64,000 bases of DNA from Sinorhizobium sp. RAC02 (GTDB taxonomy: Bacteria; Pseudomonadota; Alphaproteobacteria; Rhizobiales; Rhizobiaceae). Position 1 is the first letter of the stretch. Every line of letters starts with the position of its first letter. A program made the position numbers and the translations under genes. The notes under the pieces were generated by a model that saw nothing but the letters and a program-made list of their open reading frames with translations, was not told the origin of the DNA and did no database searches. Shown here piece by piece: positions 26,519 to 47,657 of the stretch. The DNA lies in the NCBI RefSeq assembly GCF_001713395.1, contig NZ_CP016452.1, positions 2,108,001 to 2,172,000 on the forward strand, in the 5' to 3' direction.

Positions 26519-26547
26519 TTATTATTTCATAAATACAGATATTGCAA
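26519..26547 (-). promoter_or_regulatory. Predicted iolD promoter
   Basis: On the minus strand TTGCAA (26547-26542) and TAATAA (26524-26519) are separated by 17 bp, about 50 bp upstream of the iolD start. The -35 box lies inside the operator-like palindrome at 26543-26558, so a repressor there would block RNA polymerase. Confidence 0.5.
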
Positions 26548-26558
26548 TACTTATTGCA
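26543..26558. promoter_or_regulatory. Operator-like site TGCAAT-N4-ATTGCA (site 1)
   Basis: TGCAATACTTATTGCA, a perfect 6-bp inverted repeat with 4-nt spacer upstream of iolD. The same pattern recurs at 27827, 36836, 36952, 38143, 43542 and 47642. Confidence 0.65.
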
Positions 26559-26560
26559 AC

Positions 26561-27754
26561 TCACATCGGCAGCACGCAATCCGTCCATTGCCCGCCCGAC
26601 TGGTTCGATGCGAGCGCCGCTTCGATGAACTTGACGCCAAGCGCACCATCCACCACCGTCGGATATTCCAGCAGCCCTGCGGGCAGGGTCCTGCCAAGAC
26701 GGCGGGCCTCGACGGCGATCGCAAATTCCTCATAGAGATTGCCCCAGGCGTCGCTCAGCGCCTCCGGATGGCCGCGCGGCATGTGCACGAAGCGCGCCGC
26801 ATGCACGCCGATACCGGCGCCTTCGCCGCGCGTCAGCACGCGGGCCGGCTCGTTGAAACGGCGGAAATGCAGGATTTCAGGCTCTTCCTGGTTCCATTCC
26901 AGGCTGGCCTTGTCGCCGAAGGCGCGGATGCGCAGCCCGCAATGGGCGCCGGGCGCGACCTGCGAGATCATGATGGTGCCGGGAATGTCGCCTTCGTAGC
27001 GCACATGCATGAAGGCCGTGTCCTCCAGCACCTTCGGCGGGCCCAGTGTGTGGAACTCCGCCCGAACCGCCGTTACAGGGCGACCGCAGACGAAGACGCC
27101 GAGATGGTGGCAATGGGTGCCGATGTCGCCGGTCGTGAAGGTGGGGCCGACGATCGACGGATCGACCCGCCATTGCGCGCCGGCACCGGCATCGCTCAGG
27201 GGCGTCAGCGCCCATTCCTGAAAATACTCGACATGCACCTGCTGCAGCGCGCCAAGCGCACCGTCGCGGATCATTTGGCGCGCCTGCCGCACCATGGCGG
27301 AGGCGGCATAGGCATAGGTCACGCCGAAAACGAGGCCCGTCTCCTTCTGCCGGCGCACGAGATCGAGTGCATCGGCAAGCGACGTCGTCAGCGGCTTGTC
27401 GCTGATGACGTCGATGCCTTTTTCCATGAAGGCGCAAGCAATGGCATGGTGGGAGTTGTTTGGCGTGGTGATCGCCACGGCATCGATGCCATCCGGACGC
27501 GCCGCCTCGCGCTCGGCCATCACCCGGTAATCCGTGTAGATGCGGTCCTCGGCGAGCAGCCAGGCACGCCCGGATTCCAGCGCTACCTGCGGCCGGGACG
27601 ACAGTGCACCCGCAACAAGATCCCAGCGATTGGAGAGCCGGGCGCCGCGCGCATGCACCTTGCCGATGAAACTGCCCTGCCCTCCGCCGACGATGCCGAG
27701 CCGCAAACGACGTTCGGCCAGCGGAAACGCTTGGCTGCCTGAAACCTCTGGCAT
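26561..27754 (-). CDS. Gfo/Idh/MocA-family dehydrogenase, DKP variant
   Basis: A 397-residue dehydrogenase with GIVGGGQGSFIGKVHARG Rossmann motif near residue 20, TTGDIGTHCHHLGVF in the C-terminal lobe and the same overall layout as the gene at 22342-23517. The usual catalytic EKP is replaced by SDKPL, keeping the lysine but not the glutamate. The ATG at 27754 has a GGGAGGAG site just upstream. It diverges from iolG across a 108-bp region with an operator-like site and precedes iolD, so it probably oxidises a cyclitol isomer or derivative. Confidence 0.9.
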   Translation of the reverse strand: MPEVSGSQAFPLAERRLRLGIVGGGQGSFIGKVHARGARLSNRWDLVAGALSSRPQVALESGRAWLLAEDRIYTDYRVMAEREAARPDGIDAVAITTPNNSHHAIACAFMEKGIDVISDKPLTTSLADALDLVRRQKETGLVFGVTYAYAASAMVRQARQMIRDGALGALQQVHVEYFQEWALTPLSDAGAGAQWRVDPSIVGPTFTTGDIGTHCHHLGVFVCGRPVTAVRAEFHTLGPPKVLEDTAFMHVRYEGDIPGTIMISQVAPGAHCGLRIRAFGDKASLEWNQEEPEILHFRRFNEPARVLTRGEGAGIGVHAARFVHMPRGHPEALSDAWGNLYEEFAIAVEARRLGRTLPAGLLEYPTVVDGALGVKFIEAALASNQSGGQWTDCVLPM

Positions 27755-27826
27755 GATCTCCTCCCTCAAAATCCACGCTTGCCCGAAAACGGGCTTGCAG
27801 AATTAATATTGACGGAATATCAAATG

Positions 27827-27842
27827 CGCAACTTTTTTTGCA
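27827..27842. promoter_or_regulatory. Operator-like site CGCAAC-N4-TTTGCA (site 2)
   Basis: An imperfect member of the TGCAAY-N4-ATTGCA series in the divergent region between the dehydrogenase (start 27754) and iolG (start 27863). One mismatch per arm against the consensus. Confidence 0.45.
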
Positions 27843-27862
27843 TCACCATCAGGAGGAAGTTG

Positions 27863-28864
27863 ATGATCAGGATTGCGTTGCTCGGCTGCGGGCGTATCGG
27901 GAAGATGCATGCTGCCACGATTGTGCGTTCAAGCAAAGCCGAACTCGCAGCCGTTTACGATCCCGTTTTCGCGGCCGCCGAAGAGGTCGGCCGCCAGTTC
28001 GGATGCATGGTTGCCGACAGTGCCGAAGAGGCGATCGCACAGGCCGATGCCGTGCTGATCGCGACCTCCACGCCGACGCATGCGGACCTCATCGAGGCAT
28101 CCGCAAAAGCCGGCAAGGCCATCTTCTGCGAAAAGCCCATCGACCTGTCGCTGGCCCGGGTCAAGGCCTGCCGCGCGGCGCTGAAGGGTTTCGACAGGCC
28201 GATCCAGATCGGCTTCAACCGCCGTTACGATCCGGGTCACCGGGCGGCGCGCGATGCGGCCCGTTCAGGCGAGATCGGCGACATCCGGCAGGTGATCATC
28301 ACGTCGCGCGACCCCGGTCTCGCGTCGCGCGAATACCTCAAGGCATCCGGCGGCATCTTCAAGGACATGACCATCCACGATTTCGACCTCGCCCGCTTCA
28401 TGCTGGGCGAAGAGCCCGTCGAAGTCTTCGCCACCGGCAGTGCGCTCATCGACCCGACGCTTGCGGAGCTGAACGATATCGACTCCACCATGGTCGTTCT
28501 GCGCACGGAAAGCGGCAAGCTCTGCCACATTAACAACTCCCGTGCGGCGATCTACGGCCATGACCAGCGCGTCGAGATCCTGGGTTCGAACGGAATGCTC
28601 ATCTCCGGAAACCGCCGCGCGCATGGCCTCGAACGGTTCGGGCCGACCGCGACCGGCGCCGGCGAACCCTTCCTCAACTTCTTCATCGAGCGCTATGCGG
28701 AAGCCTATGCGCTGGGGCTGGAATCGTTCATCGACTGCGTCGAAACCAACGCCACGCCGGACGCCACCTTTGAAGACGGCGAAAAGTCCCTCGCGCTCGC
28801 CGAGGCCGCAAACCTCTCGCGCGCCGAGCGGCGGTTCGTCAACATCCGCGAAATCGTCGGCTGA
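27863..28864 (+). CDS. iolG: Inositol 2-dehydrogenase
   Basis: A 333-residue Gfo/Idh/MocA protein matching rhizobial inositol 2-dehydrogenases: IALLGCGRIGKMHA at the N-terminus, CEKPIDLSL near residue 95, QIGFNRRYDPGH near 122 and KDMTIHDFDLARFMLG near 170 with the catalytic His/Asp pair. It oxidises myo-inositol to 2-keto-myo-inositol with NAD+, feeding IolE and IolD encoded nearby. The ATG at 27863 follows AGGAGGAAG. It is transcribed alone and ends at a hairpin before the convergent RpiR gene. Confidence 0.88.
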   Translation: MIRIALLGCGRIGKMHAATIVRSSKAELAAVYDPVFAAAEEVGRQFGCMVADSAEEAIAQADAVLIATSTPTHADLIEASAKAGKAIFCEKPIDLSLARVKACRAALKGFDRPIQIGFNRRYDPGHRAARDAARSGEIGDIRQVIITSRDPGLASREYLKASGGIFKDMTIHDFDLARFMLGEEPVEVFATGSALIDPTLAELNDIDSTMVVLRTESGKLCHINNSRAAIYGHDQRVEILGSNGMLISGNRRAHGLERFGPTATGAGEPFLNFFIERYAEAYALGLESFIDCVETNATPDATFEDGEKSLALAEAANLSRAERRFVNIREIVG

Positions 28865-28870
28865 GACCCC

Positions 28871-28908: not shown

Positions 28909-29820
28909 TCAGGGCTTGCGGCGCTGGTTTCCCGTCACCGTCGGAATCTGCGGCGAGTCCTTCTTGTCCTCCTGGAGCAGCGCTGCAACCGCGACCGCGA
29001 TCGCCTGGGTCAGGCACATCGGTGCCGCAAGCGAGCGCGAGAACGAATATTCATCCTCCGGGATCGTGAACAGAACGCTGGCATTCTTCGCAAGTGGAGA
29101 CAGCTGGCTGTCCGTGATGGCAACCATCGGCGTGCCATTGTGTGCCGCAACGTCGGCGATCGTCACGACTTCCTTGGCATAGTGGCGGAAGGCGATTGCG
29201 ATCAGTACGTCCTTCTTGCCCATGACCTGCGCCATCTCGGGCGCGAGCCCGCCCGCAGGGTCGAGCAGAATGACCCGTAGCTGAAGCATGGAGAGCACGT
29301 AGCGGAGGAATTTCGCGATCGGCTCGGAGCGCAGCTGTCCGGCGATAAAGATCGTGTTCGCGCTCTTTATGACCTTGGCCGCCTTGGACAGGCTTTCCTC
29401 GGGCGTAGAGCTCAGCAGTTCCTGAAGCGTTGCAATATCGCGAACGACCAGATCGTGCAGGAAGCCAAGGTTGCCCTTCCGCTTGTTCTTCTCCAGATCG
29501 ACGTCCAGCGCGCTGATGCGCTCGCGATAACCGGGCGCTGCCGTCGAGAGCCGGGTCTGGAAAACGGCCTGGAGCTGCTTGAAACCGGAAAACCCGAAAT
29601 TCTGGGCGAAGCGCACAAGGATGGACGGATGGGCGCCGCATTCCTCGGCAATCGCATTGATCGATTTCATCGCGACGACGTTCGGGTTCTGCGTGATGAA
29701 GCGGGCAACCTGCTGGAAACGGTCGCTCAAGTCCGGATAGGCTTCCGTGACGAGATTGACGAATGTTTCGTAGTTGGCTGTGCGCGGTGGCGGCTGATCG
29801 GACTGTTTTACCCGTGGCAT
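28909..29820 (-). CDS. RpiR/MurR-family transcriptional regulator
   Basis: A 303-residue regulator: N-terminal helix-turn-helix (MKSINAIAEECGAHPSILVRFAQNFGFSGFKQLQ, about residues 50-85) and a C-terminal SIS domain that binds phosphosugars (SANTIFIAGQLRSEPIAKFL near 155). RpiR members include IolR, the inositol regulator of rhizobia. The location among iol genes makes it a prime candidate for binding the repeated TGCAAY-N4-ATTGCA sites, alongside the LacI protein at 48031. The ATG at 29820 has an AGGAG site 9 bp upstream; earlier in-frame codons lack one. Confidence 0.9.
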   Translation of the reverse strand: MPRVKQSDQPPPRTANYETFVNLVTEAYPDLSDRFQQVARFITQNPNVVAMKSINAIAEECGAHPSILVRFAQNFGFSGFKQLQAVFQTRLSTAAPGYRERISALDVDLEKNKRKGNLGFLHDLVVRDIATLQELLSSTPEESLSKAAKVIKSANTIFIAGQLRSEPIAKFLRYVLSMLQLRVILLDPAGGLAPEMAQVMGKKDVLIAIAFRHYAKEVVTIADVAAHNGTPMVAITDSQLSPLAKNASVLFTIPEDEYSFSRSLAAPMCLTQAIAVAVAALLQEDKKDSPQIPTVTGNQRRKP

Positions 29821-30016: not shown

Positions 30017-30964
30017 TCAATAGGGAGCGTCGGGGAAGTAGTATTCCGCAGCGTTGTCCTTGGTGATCAGCGGGCTGCCGAGCACGTAGCGACCGTTGAT
30101 CGGAGCCTGCGTGGCGAACTTCATGGTGACGAGTTCGATCGCCGGAATGATCAGCGTCGGCGGGTAGAAGATGTCGGCATCGACCATGTCGTGGCCGTCC
30201 ATCACCAGCTTGATCACCTTGTTCATGCCGGAACCGCCCAGCACCGTCACGTTCTTGCGCTCCGCCTGCTTGATCGCCTCGATGGCGCCGAGTGCGGCAT
30301 CGTCGTCGCCAGCCCACACACCGTCGATCTCAGGGAACCGCTGGAGATAGTCCTGCATCACCTCGAAACCCTTGTCCGGGTTCCAGTTGGCGTACTGCAT
30401 GTCGAGCACTTCGATCTTGGTATCCTTCAGCGCCGCGTTGAAGGCGTCGATGCGGATGTTGTCGATCGCTGTCGGGATGCCGCGCATCACGACGATCTTG
30501 CCGCCGTCCGGAAACTTCTTCTTGAAGTATTCGGCCGCCGCCGTGCCATATCGCGGGTTGTCGCCGCCGACATAGAGGTCTTCGATGCCTTCTTCGGCAA
30601 GGCCCCGGTCGACGGTCGCGATGAACACACCCTTGGCCTTGGCAGCCTTGACCGGCTCGGTCAGCGGGTCGGATTCGAAGGGCAAGACGACAAGCGCATT
30701 GATATTGCGCGCCATCAGATCCTCGATGTCGTTGACCTGCTGCGTGGCGCTCGACGAGGTCGCCAGCACGAAGTCGATGTTCGGGAAGGCTTCCTTCATC
30801 CGGTCGATGGTGCGCTTGGTGTGGTAGTTGAGGCCGCCCGTCCAGCCGTGCGTGGCGGCCGGGATCGAGACGCCGATGACGGCGTCGGCAGCGAGCGCCG
30901 GCGTCGCAAGGCTAGCGACGACCACAGCACCTGCGGCAAGGATGGATTTCAATCTGTCGAACAT
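30017..30964 (-). CDS. Sugar ABC importer binding protein (Rbs type)
   Basis: A 315-residue periplasmic binding protein with signal peptide cut after ALA and the class I sugar-binding fold: IGVSIPAATHGWTGGLNYH, DIEDLMARNINALVVLPFES, and WAGDDDAALGAIEAIKQA. Last gene of a six-gene minus-strand operon starting at 36772. Ligand probably a pentose, cyclitol or sugar acid, since the co-transcribed enzymes include an aldolase and dehydrogenases. Confidence 0.92.
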   Translation of the reverse strand: MFDRLKSILAAGAVVVASLATPALAADAVIGVSIPAATHGWTGGLNYHTKRTIDRMKEAFPNIDFVLATSSSATQQVNDIEDLMARNINALVVLPFESDPLTEPVKAAKAKGVFIATVDRGLAEEGIEDLYVGGDNPRYGTAAAEYFKKKFPDGGKIVVMRGIPTAIDNIRIDAFNAALKDTKIEVLDMQYANWNPDKGFEVMQDYLQRFPEIDGVWAGDDDAALGAIEAIKQAERKNVTVLGGSGMNKVIKLVMDGHDMVDADIFYPPTLIIPAIELVTMKFATQAPINGRYVLGSPLITKDNAAEYYFPDAPY

Positions 30965-30998
30965 TCACTTGTCTCCCTGTTGAAGTGAAAAGAAGGTG

Positions 30999-32015
30999 TC
31001 AGCCCTGCGAACGGTCGCGTTGCAGGAGGACTGCGATGATGATGATCGCCCCCTGGAATGCGCCGTTGAGATAGGGGCTGATGAAGCCGGTGAGGTTGAG
31101 GATGTTGCTGATAAAGCCGAGGATCAGCACGCCGACGATCGTGCCCCAGATGCGGCCGAAGCCACCGCTGAGCGCCGTGCCGCCGATGATGACCGCGGCA
31201 ATCGCCTCCAGTTCCCACATCAGGCCGGTCGAAGGGGTAGCTGCGCCGAGGCGCGGCACGTAGATCACCGTTGCGATGGCCACGCAGAGGCCCTGGATGA
31301 CATAGGTCAGGATGCGCACGCGGTTGACCGGGATCGCCGAATAGAAGGCGACATGGCGGTTCGATCCGATGGCAGCCACATGCCGGCCGAAGCGCATGCG
31401 ACGTAGCACCAGTTCGCCGACGACGGCGATAACGCCGAGCACGAGGATCGGCACGGCGATACCGAGGATCTGGCCATAGTAGATCGGGCGTGCGGCATCG
31501 CGTAGCGAGAAATCGAGAGAGATGGAGCCGCCATCCGCAAGCCAGGTGATGACCGAGCGGAAGATGCCCATGGCGCCGAGCGTCACGATGAAGGCTTCCA
31601 CCCGCCCCTTGACGATCATGACCCCGTTGAGAAGACCGGCCGCTGCTCCGACGACAAGGGAGCAGACGATGCCGGCGGCAACGAGTTGCCAGCCCCGCCC
31701 GAGCACCTCGGCGGCCGAATTCATGAACATGATCGTCACGCCTGCGACCAGCGCCGAGAGCGAGCCGACGGAAAGGTCGAGCCCGCCCGCCGTAATGACG
31801 AAGGTGGCGCCAACCGCGATGATGCCGATGATCGCGCTGCGCGTGAAAACGTTCGAGAGGTTTTCCGCGCCGAGAAAGCTGTCGCTCATCAGGGAACCGA
31901 TGAGCATCAGCAGGATGAGAGCAATTAGCGGGCCTGCGGCCTCAAAAATACCCGCAAGGGTGCGGCCCGGCGACGCTTTGGCGTTGCCGGCGGATGATGC
32001 GGTAATGTCGGTCAA
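30999..32015 (-). CDS. Sugar ABC importer permease (RbsC-like)
   Basis: A 338-residue inner-membrane permease with about eight to ten hydrophobic segments, the GGLDLSVGSLSALVAGV segment and AVIIGGTALSGGFGRIWGT near residue 275 that mark the RbsC/XylH family. The start is an unusual TTG at 32015, overlapping the ATPase stop by 4 bp, supported by an AGGAGGAGG site 7 bp upstream. Confidence 0.92.
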   Translation of the reverse strand: MTDITASSAGNAKASPGRTLAGIFEAAGPLIALILLMLIGSLMSDSFLGAENLSNVFTRSAIIGIIAVGATFVITAGGLDLSVGSLSALVAGVTIMFMNSAAEVLGRGWQLVAAGIVCSLVVGAAAGLLNGVMIVKGRVEAFIVTLGAMGIFRSVITWLADGGSISLDFSLRDAARPIYYGQILGIAVPILVLGVIAVVGELVLRRMRFGRHVAAIGSNRHVAFYSAIPVNRVRILTYVIQGLCVAIATVIYVPRLGAATPSTGLMWELEAIAAVIIGGTALSGGFGRIWGTIVGVLILGFISNILNLTGFISPYLNGAFQGAIIIIAVLLQRDRSQG

Positions 32016-33520
32016 TGGCTTGCCTCCTCCTGCGGGGCTTTATCTTCCAGGCCCATGGCAAATCGAATGATGTCGGTCTCGCTGATCGCGTCGCCGGAAA
32101 GTTCACCGGCAATGCGGCCGCGCCGCATGACCAGCACGCGGTCGGACAGACCGACGATCTCCTGCATCTCGGACGAGACGACGACGATCGCCTTGCCCTC
32201 TGCGGCAAGCGTGGCGATGATCTCGTAGATCTGCTGCTTGGCGCCGATATCGACGCCGCGCGTCGGCTCGTCGAAGACGATGAGATCGGGCTCGACGGCA
32301 AGCGTCTTGGCGATCAACACCTTCTGCTGGTTGCCGCCGCTGAGCGCACCGGCCGTGACGTCGAGCCGTCCAGTGCGGATGTCGTAGCGTCCGACGGCCG
32401 CTTCGAGATCACGCCGCTCCGCCCGCCGGTCGATCCAGCTCGCGCCGTTGATCGCCCCCTTGGTGAGCGCCACGTTCTGGTCGAGCGACTTGCCGAGCAG
32501 CAGGCCCTTGCCCTTGCGGTCCTCCGTAAGGTAGGCGAGTTTCAGCCCCCAGGCCTCACGCGCTGCCGGCAGCTTGCGCGCCTCCCCACGCAGCACGAAG
32601 GACCCGCATCGCGCCGGCCGTAGCCCGAACAACGCTTCGAAAAGCTCTGTGCGGCCGGAGCCGACAAGGCCGGAAATGCCGAGCACTTCACCCTCGCGGA
32701 TATCGAGCGTCGCCTCCTCGACGGTGCCCGGCGATGTGAGGCCGGCGACGCTGAGCAATGCCTTGCGGTCTGCCGCACCGCGCCGGGGTGGATAGATTTC
32801 CGCAAGCGGCCGCCCGACCATCGCCTCGGCCATCGCATCCTCGGAAATATCGCTGGTGTTCTCGACGCGCACGATCTGGCCGTCGCGCAGGACCGCAACG
32901 CGATCGGCGATATCCTTCACCTCATCAAGGCGGTGCGAGGTGAAGATCACCGAACCGCCCGTCTCGCGGAACGCGCGGATACGGGCGAACAGGTTGCCCG
33001 CCTCCGTCGCCGACAACACTGCGGTCGGCTCGTCCATCAGAATGAGTTTCGGCTGGCGGGCGAAGGCCTTGGCGAGCTCGATCATCTGCCAATCCGAGAC
33101 AGGGAGATCGCGCAACCGCGCTCGAACGGGAGCCACCGAGCCGAGTTCAGCCAGCAAATCGCGCGCCCGTGCCTCCATCGCCTTGCGATCAGTGAAGAGG
33201 CCGCGCGTGATTTCCCGGCCAAGAAAGACGTTTTCCGCCACCGTCAGATGCGGCGCCAGGCAGAATTCCTGGTGCACCATGACGATGCCCGCACGCTCGG
33301 CGGCATGCAGCGTTGCCGGCGCCGGTGCGCTGTCCAGCAGCATCGTGCCCGAAGACGGCGGCGCCAGCCCCGCGGCAATGCGCATGAGGGTCGACTTGCC
33401 AGCGCCGTTTTCACCAACGAGCGCCAGCACCTCACCCGGTTTCACCACGAGATCGATGCCCTTCAGCACCGGCACGATGCCATAGGATTTGGCGATATCG
33501 CGAAATACCAGCAGCGCCAT
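32012..33520 (-). CDS. Sugar ABC importer ATPase, tandem domains (RbsA-like)
   Basis: A 502-residue protein with two ABC domains. The first has Walker A GENGAGKST near residue 35 and Walker B LILMDEPTAVLS. The second has a degenerate Walker A (GLVGSGRTELFEALFG), as usual for RbsA, but a canonical LSGGNQQKVLIAKTLA and IVFDEPTRGVD. It energises the permease and binding protein that follow. Confidence 0.94.
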   Translation of the reverse strand: MALLVFRDIAKSYGIVPVLKGIDLVVKPGEVLALVGENGAGKSTLMRIAAGLAPPSSGTMLLDSAPAPATLHAAERAGIVMVHQEFCLAPHLTVAENVFLGREITRGLFTDRKAMEARARDLLAELGSVAPVRARLRDLPVSDWQMIELAKAFARQPKLILMDEPTAVLSATEAGNLFARIRAFRETGGSVIFTSHRLDEVKDIADRVAVLRDGQIVRVENTSDISEDAMAEAMVGRPLAEIYPPRRGAADRKALLSVAGLTSPGTVEEATLDIREGEVLGISGLVGSGRTELFEALFGLRPARCGSFVLRGEARKLPAAREAWGLKLAYLTEDRKGKGLLLGKSLDQNVALTKGAINGASWIDRRAERRDLEAAVGRYDIRTGRLDVTAGALSGGNQQKVLIAKTLAVEPDLIVFDEPTRGVDIGAKQQIYEIIATLAAEGKAIVVVSSEMQEIVGLSDRVLVMRRGRIAGELSGDAISETDIIRFAMGLEDKAPQEEASH

Positions 33521-33522: not shown

Positions 33523-34509
33523 TCAGCTGCCGACCGGAGAAAGACGCGGAGCAATCTCGGCGCGGTTGACGACGAGTGCCGGGTCGAGCGTGCCCCTGAA
33601 GAAATCGAGGATATTTGCCGCTGCCGAGATGGCCATGCGCCGCGCACAGGCTTCGGTGAGCCCGGCATTGTGCGGGGACAGCACCACCCGGTCGCAGGCA
33701 AGCATGGGGTCGTCATGTGCCGGCGGTTCGGCATCGAGCACGTCGAGGCCGGCCGCGGCAAGGCGCCCCTCGTTGAGCGCGGAAAGCAGCGCCGTTTCAT
33801 CGATCAGGCCGCCGCGGGCGGTGTTGACGAGAATGGCCGAACGCTTCATCACGGCCAGCTCCGCCGCACCGATCAAAGGCTCGGCGCCGAATTTCGGCAC
33901 ATGCAGCGACACCACGTCGGCACGGGAGAGACCATCGAGCAAGCCGTCCACCGGCGTTGCGCCGGCCGCCGCGATCTGGTCCGCACCCTGGAACTTATCG
34001 TAGGCAAGCACCGTCATGCCGAGCGCCGTCGCGATCTGCGCCAGCCGCCTGCCGATGCGGCCGAAGCCGACCACCAGCAATGTGCCCCCATCGAGCTCGT
34101 CGGCATCAAGACTGTTGCGGTAATTCCAGTCGCCTTGCCGCATCTTGCGGTCGAAGAGAACGGTGCGGCGCGCGGCCGAGAGCATCAGCATGACGGCGTG
34201 CTCTGCCACGGCGCGAGAATTCACATCCCCCACGACGGCAAGCGGTATGCCGCGACCGTTCAGGGCCGCGACATCGACTGAATCGTAGCCGACGCCGTGG
34301 CGCGAAACGATCTTGAGGTTCGGCGCATCGGCAACGAACGCCGCCGAAAGTGGCTGGGTTCGGATGAGGAGTGCATCCGCCGTTGCAAGGAACGGCGCGT
34401 AGCTTGTCGCGGAAACCTCCTCGACATAGTCGATCGTCACGCCGGGTGCGGTATTGAGGACGGCAAGGCCGTCTGCGTGGATTTTTCCTGCCACCAGGAT
34501 CCTGGGCAT
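33523..34509 (-). CDS. D-2-hydroxyacid dehydrogenase (NAD)
   Basis: A 328-residue D-isomer-specific 2-hydroxyacid dehydrogenase. NAD motif VVGFGRIGRRLAQIA near residue 150; catalytic Arg in VNTARGGLID near 235, Glu in DVLDAEPP and His in LSPHNAGLT near 285. It starts one base before the stop of the aldolase gene and lies 2 bp from the ATPase gene. With the HpcH aldolase it may reduce glyoxylate, tartronate semialdehyde or hydroxypyruvate-like products; inference from context. Confidence 0.9.
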   Translation of the reverse strand: MPRILVAGKIHADGLAVLNTAPGVTIDYVEEVSATSYAPFLATADALLIRTQPLSAAFVADAPNLKIVSRHGVGYDSVDVAALNGRGIPLAVVGDVNSRAVAEHAVMLMLSAARRTVLFDRKMRQGDWNYRNSLDADELDGGTLLVVGFGRIGRRLAQIATALGMTVLAYDKFQGADQIAAAGATPVDGLLDGLSRADVVSLHVPKFGAEPLIGAAELAVMKRSAILVNTARGGLIDETALLSALNEGRLAAAGLDVLDAEPPAHDDPMLACDRVVLSPHNAGLTEACARRMAISAAANILDFFRGTLDPALVVNRAEIAPRLSPVGS

Positions 34510-36772: not shown

Positions 36773-36835
36773 GTTTCCTCCTCGGATTGCTGATGGAGAC
36801 CCGATCAGCAACATTCGTTTTCATTATTACAAAGA

Positions 36836-36851
36836 CGCAATTTTAATTGCA
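36836..36851. promoter_or_regulatory. Operator-like site CGCAAT-N4-ATTGCA (site 3)
   Basis: CGCAATTTTAATTGCA sits 64 bp upstream of the aldehyde dehydrogenase start, beside a minus-strand TTGACG that could be the -35 box. Confidence 0.6.
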
Positions 36852-38142: not shown

Positions 38143-38158
38143 TGCAATTATCATTGCA
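38143..38158. promoter_or_regulatory. Operator-like site TGCAAT-N4-ATTGCA (site 5)
   Basis: TGCAATTATCATTGCA, perfect palindrome arms, in the 115-bp divergent region between the dehydrogenase (start 38106) and iolE (start 38222). It covers the predicted -10 of the minus-strand promoter. Confidence 0.65.
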
Positions 38159-40105: not shown

Positions 40106-41226
40106 CAGCGTTCTCCCGTGATGATGCGGCGGATGTAGGTGTTCATGATCACGGCCGTCAGCAGGATGACGCCGAGGAACACCCGGAAGAGCGAGCTTTC
40201 CGCATTGGCAAAGAACAGGCCCTGCTGCACCACGCCGAAGATGATGGCGCCAAGTGCCGCCCCGATGACGGAGCCGTAGCCGCCGGTGAGCAGCGCGCCG
40301 CCGATCACCACGCAGATGATCGCCTCGAACTCTTTCAACAGGCCGCGGTCGGCCGCCGCCGAGCCGAACTCCATCACCTGGCAGGTGGCGAAGACGACGG
40401 CGCAGAAGGCGGAGAACATGAACATCAGGATTTTTACGCGATTGACCGGCACGCCGATGTAGCGCGCGGCAAGCGCATCGCCGCCGGCGGCAAAGATCCA
40501 GTTACCGAACTTGGTGCGGGTCAGCAGCCAGTGACCGAAGACGACGAGCACGATCGCCCAGACGACGAGCATGGGAATACCGTCAATGACCGGCTGCCCG
40601 GCGCGATTACCGCGGGTGAAGGTGGCGATCCAGCCCGCCTCCCCCATCCAGGTGAAGAGCCAGCCTAAAACCTTGCCGCCGAAGACCGGGGCGAGCCAGT
40701 CGGTTGCCGCCTTTTCGGCAACGCCGCCGATGATCGTCTGGCGGGTAAAATAGATCGAGCCCCAGATGGTCAACCCGCGCAGGATATAGAGGAAGGCGAG
40801 TGTCACGATGAAGGACGGCAGGCCAGTGCGGATGACCAGCCAGCCGTTCACACCGCCAAGCAGGACGCAGAAGACGAAGGTCGCGATGATGGCGAGCCAG
40901 AGCGGCACCCCGAGATGGACCGACAGGATGGCCATCATGACACCGGAAAAGCCTATCATCGAGCCGGTGGAAAGATCGAACTCGCCGGCAATCATCAGAA
41001 GGCAGGCGCCCACCGCGATGACCATGAACTGGGCCGAAACCACCGTCCAGTTCATCACCCCCTCGGCGGCGAACATGCCGCTGTCACCGGCAATCACCGC
41101 AAACAGCAGGAAGACCAGGATGGTGCCGCAGATGCCGCCGAGCTCGGGCCGGATCAGCGCGCGCCTGAGCGGCGAGACGGGTTTGATGCGCTCGTCCTTC
41201 AGCGCGTCCGGAATGACGTCCGTCAT
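40105..41226 (-). CDS. Sugar ABC importer permease (FrcC/RbsC-like)
   Basis: A 373-residue permease with the family segments [18 protein letters not shown] near residue 80 and [19 protein letters not shown] near 310. The N-terminal cytoplasmic tail is longer than in the RbsC-like permeases nearby. It is separated from the binding-protein gene by a 13-bp perfect hairpin. Confidence 0.92.
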
Positions 41227-41253
41227 GAATGCATTTCCTCCCTCAGAAACATT

Positions 41254-41292
41254 TTTTGGCGCGCACGGGCAATGAGCCGGTGCGCGCCAAAA
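41254..41292 (-). other. Intercistronic hairpin between binding-protein and permease genes
   Basis: TTTTGGCGCGCAC (41254-41266) pairs perfectly with GTGCGCGCCAAAA (41280-41292) over a 13-nt loop. Such structures after binding-protein genes protect the upstream mRNA and lower permease expression. Confidence 0.65.
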
Positions 41293-41302
41293 GTTCGTCA
41301 GA

Positions 41303-42247
41303 TCAGCGGTACTGGCCTGCCAGCGACTCGACGAGCGCGATGTTGTCCTTCGTCACGAAGCCAGGGCCGGTGAAGATCGAGTTCGACGGCGTCACACCGT
41401 AACCGACATAGTTCGTCAGCACCTGGATCGGGATCGAGCCCTGCAGGAACGGCTGCTGGTCGATCGCGAAGTTGATCGTGCCGTCCTTGATGGCCGCAGA
41501 GATTTCTGCGGAGAGGTCGAAGGTGCCGAAATACAGGTCGCCATCGAGGCCCATCTCCTTGACCGCCCGGATCGACGGTTCGGCCGAGTTGGGGCCGAGC
41601 GTCAGGATCGCGCCGGTATCGGGATTGGCGGTGAGATAGGCTTTCACCTTGTTCTGAACTTCCGACGGGTCGATGCCGGAATCGACCATCTGGTTGCCGA
41701 GTTCCACGCCGATGCCTTCGGCAAAGCCACGGCACCGCTCAACGGAAGCGGGGTTGGTAATGTAGTGGTTCACGCAGAGGAAGCTCTTGATGCCCGCCTC
41801 CTTCGCGCGCTTGCCGGCGCCGAGGCCCGCTTCATATTCCGGCTGGCCGACATGCATCAATGCACCGAGCTTCTGGCTTTCTTCCACCGTACCCGAATTG
41901 ACGGTCACGACTGGAATGCCCTTGGCGACGGCATCCTTGATCGGCCCTTCCAGCACATTGAAATCGGCGATCGTGACGATAATGCCGTCAACGCCGGCCG
42001 CCGAGCTCTGCTGCACGAGGCGCGCCATGTCGGCGAGGTCCCCGCTCGGCGGATTACGATATTCGGTCGTAACGCCCATCTGCTCGTTCGTGACCTTGAT
42101 CGCGTTCTTGATGACGTTGAACCAACTGTCGCTATCCGGGCCGTGGCTGATCCAGACGAATTTCTCGCCATCAGCATTGGCGATACCGGCAAACGCCGTC
42201 GTGGCCAGCAGCGCGCCGAGGGCGAGCGATTGCAGAATTTTCTTCAT
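41303..42247 (-). CDS. Sugar ABC importer binding protein (CUT2)
   Basis: A 314-residue binding protein with signal peptide ending IANA and class I features: FVWISHGPDSDSWFNVIKNA at the N-terminus, SAAGVDGIIVTIADF near 85 and TLGPNSAEPSIRAVKEM near 215. The ATG at 42247 starts the leader directly. It follows the dioxygenase gene by 64 bp. Neighbouring iol genes suggest a cyclitol or methylated cyclitol ligand; this is inference. Confidence 0.92.
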   Translation of the reverse strand: MKKILQSLALGALLATTAFAGIANADGEKFVWISHGPDSDSWFNVIKNAIKVTNEQMGVTTEYRNPPSGDLADMARLVQQSSAAGVDGIIVTIADFNVLEGPIKDAVAKGIPVVTVNSGTVEESQKLGALMHVGQPEYEAGLGAGKRAKEAGIKSFLCVNHYITNPASVERCRGFAEGIGVELGNQMVDSGIDPSEVQNKVKAYLTANPDTGAILTLGPNSAEPSIRAVKEMGLDGDLYFGTFDLSAEISAAIKDGTINFAIDQQPFLQGSIPIQVLTNYVGYGVTPSNSIFTGPGFVTKDNIALVESLAGQYR

Positions 42248-42311
42248 GAACGATTTCCTCCCGAAATTGGCTTCCTGTTTCCTCCCCGCCCGAAGCCATT
42301 GCGGGTAATTT

Positions 42312-43421
42312 TCAAGCGGCGCGCTTGGCGCCCTGTGCGGCAAGCGCTGCATCGAGCTGTGCCTCGTCCCAACCTTCCACGACGGCCCGGGCGAGCAGCT
42401 CCTGCTGGCTTTCCGGTGCGAGACCGCCAAGCGGCGGATCGGTGTCGAGATTGGTCGGGAACGGATAACCGTCCGCGGTCGCTGCAATCACCGCCCGCCG
42501 TCCTTCCGGCGAAAGTGCCGCCAGATGCGGATAGACAGCGCGGGCCATGGCGGTGCGGTCGAGATTTTCCATGTGGCGCGCGAAGGCGGATGCCGTCTGG
42601 ATAAGATTGACCATGCGCACGACATCCGCCGTCCGGTTTTCGCCCGCGGCGTGGAACAGCGCCGGGCTGAAGAAGATGGCGTCACCCTTTTCCAAGGGAA
42701 GCTGGACACAATGTTCTTCAAAATAGGCCTGGAATTCCGGGCGCGTGGCGGCGACATAACCCGGCAGATAGCGCTGCGAATGCGGCAAAAGCTTCGTCGT
42801 GCCACTCTCGACGGGCATGTCGCAATGGGCGACGCCGCCCTGCAGGATGAGGGTCGGGCCGGTGGAGTGGATGTGGGTCGGATATTCCGCCATCTGCTCT
42901 GGCTTCATGAAGCCGAGGTGGTAGTCGCGGTGCGGCGCCTGCGCCTTGCCGCCGGGGCGAACCTGGTTGACCTGCGTGGCGATCTGGTAGCCGGGACCAA
43001 GCCAGGCGCGGCAGGCAATGTCGATCACCGGATTGGCCATATAGCGGGCATAGACGGCGGGGTTGCGCAGGCACAGCTTCTGCAGGCTGTTCCAGATACG
43101 GTCATTGGCACCGGCCTTGGCAAAGTGGTCACCCGCGGCCGTGCCTGCCGCGCGCTCGTCGGCGATGATCTGGCGAAACACGTCACTGGCCGCGTCGATG
43201 GCGCCAGGATCGGTGAAAGCGCGCTTCACCACGAAGAGGCCCGGCCCCTCACCGATGACCGAGGCCCATTCCGGGCCGATGGCATCGTTGACGGACGCGC
43301 CGTCATAGATCGGGATGTTCTTCTCGATGGCAATGGCCGTCGGGCACATCGCCTTCGTGGTTTCGGTTTCGACCTCGCGCCGGAACTGCGCAAGATCAAT
43401 CACCGCTGCAATGTCATTCAT
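42312..43421 (-). CDS. Phytanoyl-CoA dioxygenase-family protein (Fe(II)/2-oxoglutarate)
   Basis: A 369-residue PhyH-family protein. The iron ligands are visible as H-x-D in APHRDYHLGF near residue 168 and a distal His in FFSPALFHAAGENRT near 260, with the following Arg positioned for 2-oxoglutarate. PhyH enzymes hydroxylate or demethylate small molecules. It is the first gene of a sugar-type importer operon, ATG at 43421 behind GAGGATCTC, with an operator-like site upstream. Hydroxylation or O-demethylation of the imported compound (for example a methylated cyclitol) is a hypothesis. Confidence 0.85.
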   Translation of the reverse strand: MNDIAAVIDLAQFRREVETETTKAMCPTAIAIEKNIPIYDGASVNDAIGPEWASVIGEGPGLFVVKRAFTDPGAIDAASDVFRQIIADERAAGTAAGDHFAKAGANDRIWNSLQKLCLRNPAVYARYMANPVIDIACRAWLGPGYQIATQVNQVRPGGKAQAPHRDYHLGFMKPEQMAEYPTHIHSTGPTLILQGGVAHCDMPVESGTTKLLPHSQRYLPGYVAATRPEFQAYFEEHCVQLPLEKGDAIFFSPALFHAAGENRTADVVRMVNLIQTASAFARHMENLDRTAMARAVYPHLAALSPEGRRAVIAATADGYPFPTNLDTDPPLGGLAPESQQELLARAVVEGWDEAQLDAALAAQGAKRAA

Positions 43422-43541
43422 GAGATCCTCCTACCGATCTGTATCGACCCCTGCAGACATCAGCACGTGACGCTCTCGCGACGCGCCTGTTGCACGTCGC
43501 AAGCCACTGCCGGGATTGAATAATTGCACTTATCCTCAAGG

Positions 43542-43557
43542 AGCAACATTAATTGCA
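43542..43557. promoter_or_regulatory. Operator-like site AGCAAC-N4-ATTGCA (site 6)
   Basis: AGCAACATTAATTGCA, about 120 bp upstream of the dioxygenase gene, with a minus-strand TTGACA just beyond it (TGTCAA on the + strand near 43570). Its 15-nt core GCAACATTAATTGCA is identical to that of site 7. Confidence 0.6.
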
Positions 43558-43684: not shown

Positions 43685-44659
43685 CTACTTGCGGATCGCC
43701 CAGTTCCGGAGCGACTTGTCGCCATAGGCCGCCCCGACGACGATGAGGCCGAGAATGAGAATGAACCATTGCGGCTGAACACCGGTGACGACCAGATAGG
43801 ACTGAATGGAGGACAGGACGAATGCACCCATCAGGGCTCCGATCAGCGAGATCCGCCCGCCAGCCAGCAGGCAGCCGCCCAGAACACAGGAGGCAATGGC
43901 CTGCAACTCCATCAGTCTCCCCATGGATCCATCGGCAAATCCGAGCTTTCCAGCCTCAAGCGCGCCGGCAAAGGCGGCGAGCATACCGCAGATGACGAAT
44001 GCGGACAGCTTGATGCGCTCGACACGCACACCGCGCGAATGCGCACTGTCCGCCGAGCCGCCGACGGCCAGCAGCCGGTTGCCGAATGGCATAGCCTTCA
44101 GGACGACGAAGAGAATAGCAAAGACCGCGATCAACCAGAACAGAGCGGTATTGAAGCCGAGAAAATCGCCCCCGCCAAGAAGAAAGTAGGTCCAGCCGTT
44201 TCGCGCTGCATAGGGAATGGAAAACGAAAAGCCGTCCGTCAGCGCGATCGCGACGCCACGAAAGATCATCAGGGTGCCAAGAGTGATGATCAGCGAGGGT
44301 GTCTTTGTCCTGGTGATGAGCCAGCCGTTCACATAACCGATAGCCGCGCCAACCACGATCGCAGCCAAAGCGGCAAACACGGGATCGACACGGGCGGCAA
44401 GCCAAAGATAGGCGAGCGCACCCATGCCGAAGGTCGAGCCGACCGAAATGTCGATTTCGCCGGTCCCGATCACGATGGCGACACCGAGGCTCATCAGCCC
44501 GAGCGTCGCGGTCACCTGCATGATGGTTCCGATATTGTAGAGGTTGGCCCAACGCCCGTCCGAGGTCGATGCGAAAATGACGATCAGGATGGCGCCGATC
44601 AGGAAGATGCCGATTTCCGTGTGGCGGCGAATGAGGGGTTTTGCCGCGGAGAGCACCAT
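43685..44659 (-). CDS. Sugar ABC importer permease (RbsC-like), second of two
   Basis: A 324-residue permease with GEIDISVGSTFGMGALAYL near residue 70 and ASCVLGGCLLAGGRISLIGA near 255. Together with the paralogous permease at 45447-46403 it implies a heterodimeric channel. Its start overlaps the ATPase stop as TGATG, and a strong terminator follows. Confidence 0.92.
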   Translation of the reverse strand: MVLSAAKPLIRRHTEIGIFLIGAILIVIFASTSDGRWANLYNIGTIMQVTATLGLMSLGVAIVIGTGEIDISVGSTFGMGALAYLWLAARVDPVFAALAAIVVGAAIGYVNGWLITRTKTPSLIITLGTLMIFRGVAIALTDGFSFSIPYAARNGWTYFLLGGGDFLGFNTALFWLIAVFAILFVVLKAMPFGNRLLAVGGSADSAHSRGVRVERIKLSAFVICGMLAAFAGALEAGKLGFADGSMGRLMELQAIASCVLGGCLLAGGRISLIGALMGAFVLSSIQSYLVVTGVQPQWFILILGLIVVGAAYGDKSLRNWAIRK

Positions 44660-45429
44660 CAGACCGCCTCCTTCTCGACGACCCGACCGCCCTGGCGGAT
44701 GACGTCTTCAAGCGCTTCCGCCGACATGCTGTCCGTCGACGCATCCGCAACCTTCTCGCCATTCTCCATGATGACGATGCGATCGGCGAGTTTGTGCACC
44801 TGGAAGATATCATGCGTGATGTAGATGACGAGCAGACCCTGCTCCTTCAGCTGCACCGCCAACTCGTTGACATGCTCGCGTTCGCGCACCGACAGGTGGT
44901 TCGTCGGCTCGTCCATGATCACGACACGGTTCTTGAACTCGACGGCCCGGCCGATCTTGACCGATTGGCGCTCACCGCCCGACAGCCGTTCCACCTCGTC
45001 ATCGGCCGAGACGTTCTCGCGAAGGCCGAACTGGCGAATAACGCGGCTGGATTTCTCGCGCATCTTGGCGAAATCGAGAAACGGTATCCCGAGGATGCGT
45101 TTGACCGGCTCCCGGCCGAGATAGAAATTCCGCGCGATCGAAAGGTTGTCGCAAAGGCCGACGGACTGCTGGATAGTCTCGATGCCCTGGTCGATGGCGA
45201 GCTTCGGGTGAAACTTCTCGACCTTCTTGCCGTCGAAGAAGACCTCGCCTTTCGACGGGGCGTGGATGCCACACAGAACGCGGATCAGCGTGGTCTTGCC
45301 GGCACCATTGTCGCCGACCAGGCCGATCAATTCGCCAGCGTTGAAATCGACTGAGACGTTTTTCAGGGCGTGGAAGGCCCCGAAGTAGAGGTCAAGATTC
45401 TTGACCTGAATCAGAGGGTGTTGGGTCAT
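44659..45429 (-). CDS. Sugar ABC importer ATPase, single domain
   Basis: A 256-residue single-domain CUT2 ATPase: Walker A GDNGAGKTT near residue 38, LSGGERQSVKIGRAVEF, and Walker B VVIMDEPTNHLSVRE, where the usual D-loop SALD is replaced by NHLS. The ATG at 45429 has a GAGGACG site. It lies between two permease genes. Confidence 0.92.
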   Translation of the reverse strand: MTQHPLIQVKNLDLYFGAFHALKNVSVDFNAGELIGLVGDNGAGKTTLIRVLCGIHAPSKGEVFFDGKKVEKFHPKLAIDQGIETIQQSVGLCDNLSIARNFYLGREPVKRILGIPFLDFAKMREKSSRVIRQFGLRENVSADDEVERLSGGERQSVKIGRAVEFKNRVVIMDEPTNHLSVREREHVNELAVQLKEQGLLVIYITHDIFQVHKLADRIVIMENGEKVADASTDSMSAEALEDVIRQGGRVVEKEAV

Positions 45430-45446
45430 TTGAGCGTCCTCCCGCG

Positions 45447-46403
45447 TCAAACGCTGTGCCCGACAAAGCGGGCAAGCTTCTGATTGAAAATAACCGCCAC
45501 GATGAGAACGGCGCCGACGAATGTGATGTACCAGGACGATGGTGCGCCGAGCGCGATCAGCTCGTAACGGAAGCTGACAACGATCAAGGCGCCGAGGACG
45601 ACACCGAGGATCGACCCTCGCCCGCCAGTCAGCAGGCACCCGCCGATCACCGCTGCCGAGATGGCCTCGAGTTCCATGTTCTCGCCGAGCGTCACATGGG
45701 TCTGCGGCTGGTTGCACAGCGTCAGGATGCCGGCGAAGCCTGCAAGCAGCGAGCAGAGGACAAAGGCCGCCGTCTTGACGCGGTCGGTGCGAACACCACG
45801 CGATTCAGCGCTTTCCCGACTGCCGCCGGTCGCCAGAAGGCGGTTCCCGAAACGGGTGCCCCAGAGCATGATTGCCAGCAGGACGGAAATGATAGCGACC
45901 CAGTAGATGGCCGCGGAAATTCCGAAAAGCTCTCCGCCCAGGAGGCGGGTCAGGGCGTGGGTGCGGGCATCGGGGGAGAAATTGTGGACGGATCCGCCCG
46001 TCCAGACGTAGATGATGCCGCGCGCCGCAAACAGGCCGCCAAGCGTGACGATCATCGATGGAAGCTCGCCTTTGACGACAGCGGTTCCCTGGATAAATCC
46101 GGCCGCCGCCGCAATGAGGAGAGCCACGACCAGAGAGCCGGGCACGCCGAGGGACGGCTCCAGCGTTATGAAGGCCACGCCGGTCAGCCCGTAGATCGAC
46201 CCGACGGACAGGTCGATCTCCTTTGTCATGATCACGAGGGCCTGCCCCAAGGCCACCAGGGCAAGGATGGCCGTGAACTGCGTGACGTTGGACAGGGTCT
46301 GCACCGTCCACCATCCGGAAAAATCGATCACTGTGAAAACGGCCAGCATGGCGATGACGCCGATGGTCGCGCCGAAGCCCTGGCTGCGGACAAGGTACTT
46401 CAT
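45447..46403 (-). CDS. Sugar ABC importer permease (RbsC-like), first of two
   Basis: A 318-residue permease with KEIDLSVGSIYGLTGVAF near residue 62 and AAVIGGCLLTGGRGSILGV near 250. It is more similar in layout to the permease at 43685 than to those of the other operons. It is separated from the binding-protein gene by a hairpin. Confidence 0.92.
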   Translation of the reverse strand: MKYLVRSQGFGATIGVIAMLAVFTVIDFSGWWTVQTLSNVTQFTAILALVALGQALVIMTKEIDLSVGSIYGLTGVAFITLEPSLGVPGSLVVALLIAAAAGFIQGTAVVKGELPSMIVTLGGLFAARGIIYVWTGGSVHNFSPDARTHALTRLLGGELFGISAAIYWVAIISVLLAIMLWGTRFGNRLLATGGSRESAESRGVRTDRVKTAAFVLCSLLAGFAGILTLCNQPQTHVTLGENMELEAISAAVIGGCLLTGGRGSILGVVLGALIVVSFRYELIALGAPSSWYITFVGAVLIVAVIFNQKLARFVGHSV

Positions 46404-46448
46404 GGTTCTTGATCCTGCTCGTTGATATGCGCTGCGGGATGCGCAAAT

Positions 46449-46484
46449 GAGGGCAGCCGGCCTGTCGAAAGGCCAGCCGCCCTC
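46449..46484 (-). other. Intercistronic hairpin between binding-protein and permease genes
   Basis: GAGGGC...GCCGGCCT (46449-46463) pairs with AGGCC...GCCGCCCTC (46470-46484) with small bulges and a 6-nt loop. No T run follows on the minus strand. Expected to set a high binding-protein to permease ratio. Confidence 0.6.
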
Positions 46485-46501
46485 GCCCGGGAGGGTACCG
46501 G

Positions 46502-47530
46502 TTACCAGGTGTTCTGTTCGTCGTAGGCCTTGTCGCCGAACACGCCGCGGACCTGCTCGGCCCACTGATCCGCATTATCCTTGTTGATCACGAGCGGACC
46601 CGTCAGGATGCTTTGCTGGGGCGCGTATCCGAACTTCTTGTTCCAATACAGCCACTCCATGGGCGCGTAGCCCTGCAGCCAGAAGCCCTGGCTGTTTGTC
46701 GCGAGAATATGCCCCGCGCGCACGCCTTCGATCGATACCGGGCCTTCATCGACGGTCAGAACGGTGACGCCCTTGTCGTCGACGTCAGGATCGAGTTTCA
46801 TCTCGTTTGCCACGCCCCACGCCCAGGGGGACGACCAGCCGGCGACCGTGAAGATATAATTGGTGTCCGGATTGGCCTGCAGGAAGGATTGCAGCGTGTT
46901 GCGCGCCGTTGCCGGCTCCGCGCCGATGAAGAGTTCGTCGAACTTGGCGCCCGCCTTCTCCATCACCTCTTTCATGCCGGCGCAGCGCGCCTTGAGACCC
47001 TGATGTGCCGAGTCATGGCTTGCGCAGACGACGTGCGTCGGCTTCGGGATTTCGCCGGCCTCGACCTTCGTCAGCGCGTATTCCCCGAGCTTCTTGCCCG
47101 TCAGAAACTCGTCGCCGCCGACATAGGTGAGATAGGGAATGCGCTCACCATCGGGCCGACCGTCCGGGATGTTGAAGGCGACAACCGGGATGCCGGCATC
47201 AATCGCCTTGCGCAGCGGGCCTTCAAAGGCATCCGAACTGACGATCGGCACGGCAATGCCGTCCGGTTGGGTTGCGATTGCCTGCTCTAGCAAGCGGACA
47301 TGCTCCTGAACCGAGTAATTGTTCGTGGAAATGTATTCAGTCTTTACGTCCGGATACTTCGCCTCGAACTCCTTGAGGGATGTCGTCAGCCAGTTCATGT
47401 TCGGATCGTTGGATCCGATGTGCGAGACCATGACGAAGCGATACTGCTTTTCGCCGTCCTGGGCGTGGGCGACCCCAAGCGCAGCCGACGCCAGAAGAGC
47501 AGAATACAGGATGCTTTTTCCAATTCTCAT
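46502..47530 (-). CDS. Sugar ABC importer binding protein (CUT2)
   Basis: A 342-residue binding protein with signal peptide ending AHAQ and the sugar-binder segments FVMVSHIGSNDPNMNWLTTSL, QPDGIAVPIVSSDAFEGPL near 95 and GWSSPWAWGVANEM near 230. First gene of the operon binding protein - permease - ATPase - permease. Ligand unknown; an operator-like site of the inositol series sits 112 bp upstream. Confidence 0.92.
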   Translation of the reverse strand: MRIGKSILYSALLASAALGVAHAQDGEKQYRFVMVSHIGSNDPNMNWLTTSLKEFEAKYPDVKTEYISTNNYSVQEHVRLLEQAIATQPDGIAVPIVSSDAFEGPLRKAIDAGIPVVAFNIPDGRPDGERIPYLTYVGGDEFLTGKKLGEYALTKVEAGEIPKPTHVVCASHDSAHQGLKARCAGMKEVMEKAGAKFDELFIGAEPATARNTLQSFLQANPDTNYIFTVAGWSSPWAWGVANEMKLDPDVDDKGVTVLTVDEGPVSIEGVRAGHILATNSQGFWLQGYAPMEWLYWNKKFGYAPQQSILTGPLVINKDNADQWAEQVRGVFGDKAYDEQNTW

Positions 47531-47641
47531 AAGGTTCCTCCTCCTTGAATGGGTAGACGGAGTTATCGATGCGAGCGGGTTGCTCAGTCGTCTTCAGACG
47601 GCATCACAAGCAACCTCCACGTCGCCTGCTGAACTCCTAGA

Positions 47642-47657
47642 TGCAACATTAATTGCA
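47642..47657. promoter_or_regulatory. Operator-like site TGCAAC-N4-ATTGCA (site 7)
   Basis: TGCAACATTAATTGCA upstream of the binding protein starting at 47530. On the minus strand a TTGACA box near 47674-47669 with a 17-bp spacer would place the -10 (TTAATG) inside this site. Confidence 0.6.

Follow-up and report, generated by a model that had tools for sequence, protein, structure and literature searches.

The 64,000-nucleotide stretch of Sinorhizobium sp. RAC02 DNA analyzed here (the window; C3:2108001-2172000 in a genome of 6.63 Mb and three contigs) encodes, between 21.5 and 47.5 kb, IolD, IolG and IolE together with Gfo/Idh/MocA dehydrogenases, an SDR, TIM-barrel proteins, an aldehyde dehydrogenase (ALDH), an HpaI-type aldolase (HpaI), a D-isomer-specific 2-hydroxyacid dehydrogenase (HADH), a PhyH-family oxygenase, three ABC importers and an RpiR-family regulator. 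Judged from sequence, the RpiR protein is very probably the local repressor of a paralogous inositol-type regulon, acting through 16-bp palindromes that are often paired at 29 bp. The central genes and predicted operators are as follows, with scores in bits and, where used, from a position weight matrix (PWM).

24627-26468, minus strand: iolD (834 bits, curated cut-off 715)
27863-28864, plus strand: iolG, inositol 2-dehydrogenase (385 bits, cut-off 355; scanned as 27779-28864, the start picked by eye)
38222-39121, plus strand: iolE, myo-inosose-2 dehydratase (389 bits, cut-off 290)
35336-36772, minus strand: ALDH, first gene of its operon; succinate-semialdehyde-dehydrogenase-like, below that family's cut-off
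34510-35325, minus strand: HpaI/GarL-type aldolase (Pfam PF03328; TIGR02311 below cut-off)
33523-34509, minus strand: HADH (Pfam PF02826 and PF00389; NCBIfam matches all below cut-off)
28909-29820, minus strand: RpiR-family regulator, the putative binder, last gene of the ALDH operon; HTH_6 and SIS domains
36985-38106, minus strand: Gfo3, a Gfo/Idh/MocA dehydrogenase; levoglucosan-dehydrogenase-like (291 bits, below the cut-off of 650)
26543-26558: predicted operator 1, TGCAATACTTATTGCA, about 75 bp upstream of iolD; 22.3 bits with a leave-one-out PWM
27827-27842: predicted operator 2, CGCAACTTTTTTTGCA, between the divergent Gfo2 and iolG; the weakest of the seven
36836-36851: predicted operator 3, upstream of the ALDH operon that ends with rpiR
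36952-36967: predicted operator 4, upstream of the ALDH operon, 116 bp from operator 3; overlaps a predicted -10 box
38143-38158: predicted operator 5, between Gfo3 and iolE; covers a predicted -10 box
43542-43557: predicted operator 6, upstream of the PhyH-led importer operon
47642-47657: predicted operator 7, upstream of the two-permease importer

IolG, IolE and IolD are equivalogs of the inositol upper pathway and all three exceed their NCBIfam cut-offs; no NCBIfam match shown for HpaI or HADH reaches its cut-off. An earlier, sequence-only reading of this DNA had proposed seven sites sharing TGCAAY-N4-ATTGCA, and all seven were located at the coordinates and in the positions relative to genes that it described. 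The pattern is exact at 26543, 38143 and 47642, carries one mismatch at 36836, 36952 and 43542, and carries two at 27827. Operators 6 and 7, which were said to share a 15-nt core, are identical at 15 of 16 bases. Overlap with -10 or -35 boxes was likewise seen for 38143 and 36952, but as predicted promoters were no commoner than in shuffled DNA (2 vs. 2.4; 0 vs. 1.9) this overlap is illustrative only.

The specificity of the motif depends on how strictly it is used, since TGCAAY-N4-ATTGCA with three mismatches was not enriched in the window (69 matches; shuffle mean 68.4). With at most one mismatch, TGCAAY-N4-RTTGCA occurred at 38 places genome-wide against 23 for the reversed control, and seven of the 38 lie in the window, i.e. 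six of the seven sites and a place inside a gene at 34372. A tightened form, GCAAYWWWWRTTGC, which was picked after the sites had been seen, had 10 places in the 6.63-Mb genome at the same tolerance (reversed control 31), and this whole-genome scan, a check that the sequence-only reading had proposed, singled out its seven sites as seven of the ten. If the places were evenly spread, about 0.03 would be expected in 21 kb. The other three are intragenic (two) or intergenic on C2 (one). The seven sites share an AT-rich core, whereas most chance matches are without one. This was further supported by permutation of the half-site, where TGCAAY ranked first of 360 both in non-coding DNA of the window (6 matches; mean of the others 0.06) and in 23 loci of relatives (42 matches; mean 0.53; 23 of 25 loci used, as the gene caller fails on the low-GC DNA of L075 and L077). 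The runner-up, YGCAAT (5 matches in the window, 36 in the relatives), is almost the same motif. Thus, the motif is specific and concentrated in a 21-kb stretch. Outlying targets are possible at C1:535221 (L009), C1:723291 (L011) and C2:81046 (L135), intergenic matches of 17-18 bits that score below six of the seven sites. A 15-bit match at 37701-37716 lies within Gfo3, with weaker ones near the same codons in several relatives, and is probably a product of coding constraint.

A protein search confirmed the RpiR family name. By Pfam, the protein has an N-terminal HTH_6 domain (PF01418, 44.1 bits vs. 28.3) and a C-terminal SIS domain (PF01380, 68.2 bits vs. 25). The closest named record, Shinella sp. 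CPCC 101442, has a 100% identical protein, and orthologs of 47-100% identity were found in alpha-, beta- and gammaproteobacteria and in one Acidobacteria bin. At E ≤ 1e-60, 7 of 151 genomes of the family and 21 of 397 of the order carried an ortholog (own genome counted in each), and orthologs also came from 49 loci of named records and from 22 plasmid records. We analyzed stretches of 4-21 kb around 74 ortholog loci, or 72 once duplicates were dropped (L055/L106 and L059/L112 are identical and one of each was kept), with genes called by a codon-usage caller trained on the window, which misses some genes. A non-coding site of at least 14 bits was present in 64 of the 72 distinct loci. Counted in the 300 bp upstream of genes in 63 loci (Shinella-like loci except L080 were set aside), such sites preceded ALDH in 35/44 cases, iolD in 39/51, rpiR in 35/60, iolG in 12/37 and Gfo2 in 4/7, as compared to 19/396 for unlabelled genes. 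HpaI (1/39) and HADH (3/46) seldom had one, as they are usually operon-internal, and the rpiR of the window has no operator directly upstream. A gene of about 840 codons that matches none of the window proteins immediately precedes rpiR in L085, L086 and L089. The proposal that the RpiR protein is the likeliest binder is strengthened, as the motif recurs around rpiR orthologs across proteobacteria. The loci were gathered by rpiR similarity, so the result demonstrates joint conservation of motif, module and regulator and is not proof of binding.

The surrounding genes form a recurrent catabolic module. At an identity of at least 40% (weaker matches were dropped), the 72 loci contain iolD in 62 cases, HADH in 55, ALDH in 53, HpaI in 48, iolE and Gfo3 in 47 each, iolG in 45 and SDR in 43, and iolD, ALDH and HADH occur together in 50. 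Canonical iolB was found in none of the 72 stretches and an iolC-like gene in one (L058, next to rpiR). The window cluster has iolD and iolE and neither iolB nor iolC; the above-cut-off iolB and iolC of this genome are on C1 only. A canonical inositol catabolic cluster is described, in the part of PMC9430895 drawn on here, as having at least three of iolB, iolC, iolD and iolE, and the window contains fewer than three of them within 10 kb. The label "inositol-type" given by the sequence-only reading therefore suits the upper steps; the cluster is incomplete, and the canonical iol locus with its IolR is on another contig.

The genes that accompany iolD invite a further interpretation, namely that the regulon is an instance of a widespread second inositol pathway without phosphorylated intermediates. 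In the established iol pathway IolD yields 5-deoxyglucuronate. This compound would be reached by IolG, IolE and IolD, ALDH would then oxidize its aldehyde to 5-deoxyglucarate, and the SDR or a Gfo dehydrogenase would oxidize the C2 hydroxyl to give a 2-keto-4-hydroxy acid. The HpaI-type aldolase would split this acid into hydroxypyruvate and malonate semialdehyde, and HADH would reduce hydroxypyruvate to D-glycerate. Such a route would employ the conserved ALDH, HpaI and HADH and would need neither IolB nor IolC. RpiR would sense an unphosphorylated acid via Arg212 and bind 29-bp pairs whose separation from those of IolR would depend chiefly on a single base and a single residue (see below). 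We consider this combined proposal doubtful.

An even chance is given to the alternative that the module is an upper inositol branch for other isomers or derivatives which feeds the canonical IolB-IolC steps, with ALDH, HpaI and HADH serving another substrate; the several Gfo/Idh/MocA and TIM-barrel genes do suggest varied cyclic substrates. We searched 40 genomes that carry an rpiR ortholog, made up of 34 from the 49 named loci, five others and the own genome. An iolB match was present in 30, own genome included, which speaks for the feeding branch, but absent from the other ten, and none of these ten had an iolC match above cut-off whereas both positive controls did. Beijerinckia mobilis and Halomonas salipaludis are examples of isolates in whose genomes neither gene was seen. 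All ten contain weaker sugar-kinase matches (up to 183 bits), and a substitute kinase may exist. Except in Massilia (L116), the locus of each of these ten contains iolD and iolE, and in six of the nine it contains two or more of ALDH, HpaI and HADH as well (L096, L100, L108, L110, L118 and L125); in L098, L103 and L104 all three are absent from the stretch read. Two of these, L098 and L125, are possibly incomplete metagenome bins. The co-occurrence of iolD, ALDH and HADH in most loci also speaks against the feeding branch. On the other hand, the iolB search placed iolB within 15 kb of rpiR on the same contig in two genomes, and when these two were read further, iolB and iolC were found there in both. 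In G194 the module's importer and Gfo2 gene are directly succeeded by iolC (72%) and iolB (70%), and in G126 a second RpiR gene is found with iolB and iolC beyond the module; L058, with iolC beside rpiR, points the same way. A general absence of iolB and iolC from these clusters, which we had also entertained, holds for up to about 10 kb on each side and is refuted beyond by G194 and G126. As the module and the canonical lower steps share one cluster there, feeding into the canonical route is favoured in those species. These extended loci moved our estimate for the non-phosphorylated route from possible down to doubtful, and that for the feeding branch from somewhat short of even up to even.

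A paired architecture, missed by the sequence-only reading, was found at the operators, in that sites recur 29 bp apart. In the window the partners at this distance are:

26514-26529: weak partner of operator 1, 8.8 bits (-15.0 at 30 bp, -18.5 at 28 bp)
27798-27813: weak partner of operator 2, 3.4 bits; one half is TTGAC
36807-36822: very weak partner of operator 3, 0.2 bits
38172-38187: very weak partner of operator 5, 0.0 bits; overlaps a predicted -35 box, TTGACA, at 38176-38171
43513-43528: very weak partner of operator 6, -0.4 bits; one perfect half-site, ATTGCA
47671-47686: weak partner of operator 7, 8.7 bits

With a softened matrix, 29 bp ranked first of 284 offsets in the window (mean 5.84; mean of all offsets -7.7, standard deviation 2.2), the signal coming from six of the seven sites. 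The register was more evident in the relatives. In 26 sequences (25 relatives and the window) a partner of at least 6 bits was found in 31 of 146 tests at 29 bp and in at most 3 at other offsets between 17 and 80 bp. When both members had to reach 12 bits, the 72 loci gave 37 pairs in 22 loci at 29 bp and 11 pairs in 9 loci at 28 bp; no further spacing between 10 and 120 bp exceeded 6 pairs, and the 6 at 12 bp are overlapping palindromes. Canonical IolR sites pair likewise at 30 bp (17 of 44 offset tests in loci L139-L168; 0 or 1 at the other offsets listed), as scored with a matrix built from those same sites. Overlapping palindromes that share TGCA were also seen at 12 bp and 17 bp, which add up to 29, as if half-sites lay on a lattice (L072 5681/5693; L077 4990/5007/5019; window 26543/26555).

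In the window itself the pairs are less distinct. The strict PWM gives a 29-bp partner of at least 6 bits for two of the seven sites (26514 and 47671), the site at 36952 is without a partner, and in several partners one half resembles a -35 box. It is therefore conceivable, if rather unlikely, that the window partners are not second operators but the -35 boxes of promoters whose -10 box falls, at a constant distance, within the strong palindrome; at least part of the weak-partner signal in the window could arise in this way. TTGAC is present on one strand in three partners (those of 27827, 38143 and 47642), and the promoter predicted at 38143 is in the same register, with its -10 box under the strong site and its -35 box overlapped by the partner. 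A recount of the window partners slightly raised our estimate for this possibility. A -35 box gives no explanation for the 37 strong pairs of the relatives, and the partners of 43542 and 36836 retain a good half-site. Two dimers side by side over the promoter would be the simplest reading of the pairs.

The same genome also encodes a canonical IolR (C1:1879983-1880837) at an iol locus with iolC, iolD, iolE and iolB, which allowed a direct comparison. The window RpiR is 34% identical to it and falls in a separate clade with 100/100 support in the tree; by identity and clade it is thus not an ortholog of canonical IolR. The recognition helix starts with His in all 75 window-type rows (74 orthologs and the window, where it is His64) and with Gln in all 31 canonical rows. 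Residue 212 in a SIS loop is Arg in 75 of 75 window-type rows, the window's own Arg212 included, and Ser or Ala in all 31 canonical rows (30 and the own IolR, which is also one of the 30; a few rows are the same gene twice). The operators differ in class as well. Position 3 is C on both sides in 25 of 31 palindromes around window-RpiR orthologs and G on both sides in none (24 of 25 loci, L033 dropped), whereas around canonical IolR 22 of 66 palindromes are G/G, 33 are mixed A/G and none is C/C (30 loci). Non-coding palindromes of this frame in the window are C/C in 7 cases, G/G in 1 and mixed in 4, and do not conform to GGAA-N6-TTCC, the known alphaproteobacterial IolR motif according to the portion of PMC2597717 used here. 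Canonical IolR accompanies TGGAAT-type sites.

Several observations weigh against RpiR as sole and local repressor. The window PWM reaches at least 14 bits in 12 of 30 canonical IolR loci as compared to 17 of 25 ortholog loci of about 4 kb, so that it separates the two classes poorly and cross-binding is possible. The His/Gln split reflects one event, at the division of two deep clades that also differ in many other respects. In G126 a 28-bit TGCAAT site lies about 0.8 kb from the second RpiR gene, which is 32% identical to canonical IolR, and the motif is thus not tied to the window-type RpiR alone; this site is TGCAATATTTATTGCA (L172 6449-8180, where the second RpiR gene is beside iolB and iolC). 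In eight of the 72 ortholog loci no non-coding site reached 14 bits, and the linkage between motif and rpiR is partly built in, as the relatives were collected via rpiR. Furthermore, SpNanR, an RpiR-family protein of Streptococcus pneumoniae, is a proposed activator, which makes repression uncertain.

The first of these points would fit control of the seven sites by the canonical IolR on C1 with the local RpiR in a secondary role, as would the fact that the two operator classes differ chiefly at one position. We consider this very improbable, since C/C at position 3 was not seen around canonical IolR, nor G/G around the orthologs, and the pairs are spaced by 30 bp in one class vs. 29 bp in the other. 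Usual LacI operators carry a central CG. Binding of the motif by the LacI-family protein (48031-49056, after the third importer), with RpiR controlling something else, is suggested by a lacI 3' end 374 bp from operator 7, beside the importer, and by a LacI-type inositol regulator predicted in Rhizobium etli (from the section of PMC8877191 consulted), but is set aside as equally improbable because no LacI match of at least 40% identity was seen in any of the 72 ortholog loci (two weaker ones were) as compared to the motif in 64, and because the motif has an AT core without central CG.

Taken together, the seven sites, their concentration here, their conservation with rpiR orthologs, the 29-bp register and the class differences from IolR lead us to infer binding by RpiR, repression rather than activation, bridging by a tetramer, autoregulation and an inducer. 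RpiR dimers would bind the 16-bp palindrome TGCAAY-WWWW-RTTGCA, and at many promoters a second palindrome, often degenerate, would be available exactly 29 bp off. Transcription would be blocked by a pair of adjacent dimers, or by a tetramer, covering the promoter. As rpiR is the last gene of the ALDH operon and operators 3 and 4 lie in front of that operon, the repressor would limit its own synthesis. A pathway intermediate would release RpiR. A phosphorylated effector, DKGP, is reported to release IolR (same part of PMC8877191). The inducer of RpiR may instead be an unphosphorylated acid, as suggested by the missing iolC kinase in the window cluster and the invariant Arg212 in the SIS loop; this is the weakest step of the model.

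The remaining features of the region are:

30017-33520, minus strand: first ABC importer (ATPase 32012-33520, permease 30999-32015, binding protein 30017-30964)
21476-24581, minus strand: SDR (21476-22282), Gfo1 (22342-23517) and TIM-barrel protein (23529-24581), downstream of iolD
39329-43421, minus strand: PhyH-family oxygenase (42312-43421, by Pfam) and second ABC importer (39329-42247)
43685-47530, minus strand: third ABC importer, with two permeases (binding protein 46502-47530 and permease 43685-44659 by profile)

The binding protein of the first importer was assigned by Pfam; its ATPase and permease, the genes of the second importer and the rest of the third were named from their sequence only. 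The PhyH oxygenase heads an importer operon inside the regulon, and O-methylated inositols as its substrate would be a guess. Another pair of Gfo dehydrogenase and TIM-barrel genes, IolG/IolE-like, is located at 49380-51364, where the sole nearby motif match is intragenic (9.9 bits). A cupin at 51835-52680 was considered as IolB and rejected, as it has no NCBIfam match and the genome search gave no iolB match there.

Our results show that the finding of the sequence-only reading is right and stronger than it was stated, and describe an inositol-type regulon, probably under RpiR control, that has an operator class and a paired-site geometry of its own and possibly a different lower half. Motif, regulator and gene module recur in many proteobacteria and are directly testable. 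Two paralogous RpiR systems in one cell, with similar yet separable operators, offer a case for site discrimination in a little-studied family, and the same case is informative on how site pairs of fixed spacing work. If the proposed lower pathway is true, genomes scored as inositol-negative for missing iolB and iolC could be inositol users, and surveys of inositol and phytate turnover would change.

Among the matches listed, nothing in the open-licence literature was recognised as this RpiR group, its motif, a non-phosphorylated inositol route or 5-deoxyglucarate; an earlier database prediction of the motif is possible. As compared to the canonical inositol cluster, the window likewise has iolD, iolE and iolG, but it has ALDH, HpaI and HADH and no iolB or iolC, which the relatives G194 and G126 do have close by. 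The IolR of Salmonella is also an iol repressor, with a high- and a low-affinity site per promoter (PMC5349611, as far as the text drawn on goes), comparable to the strong and weak sites seen here; its iol island includes iolC and iolB (from parts of PMC10783015 and PMC9430895), and the comparison made here is of site arrangement and regulated genes. SpNanR resembles our model as a dimer-tetramer RpiR protein, proposed to span the gap between a full site and a nearby degenerate half-site, but its regulon is for sialic acid, its site is 18 bp, the distance is about 23 bp and the protein is a proposed activator (passages of PMC12713135). The closest system is the alphaproteobacterial IolR of Caulobacter and Sinorhizobium, which shares the RpiR family, the domains, the place beside iol genes, the outer frame of the palindrome and tandem operators near 30 bp. 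The window RpiR is only 34% identical to it, falls in a clade of its own and has His for Gln as well as Arg212; its operators have C for G at position 3 and a spacing of 29 for 30 bp, in a cluster without iolB and iolC.

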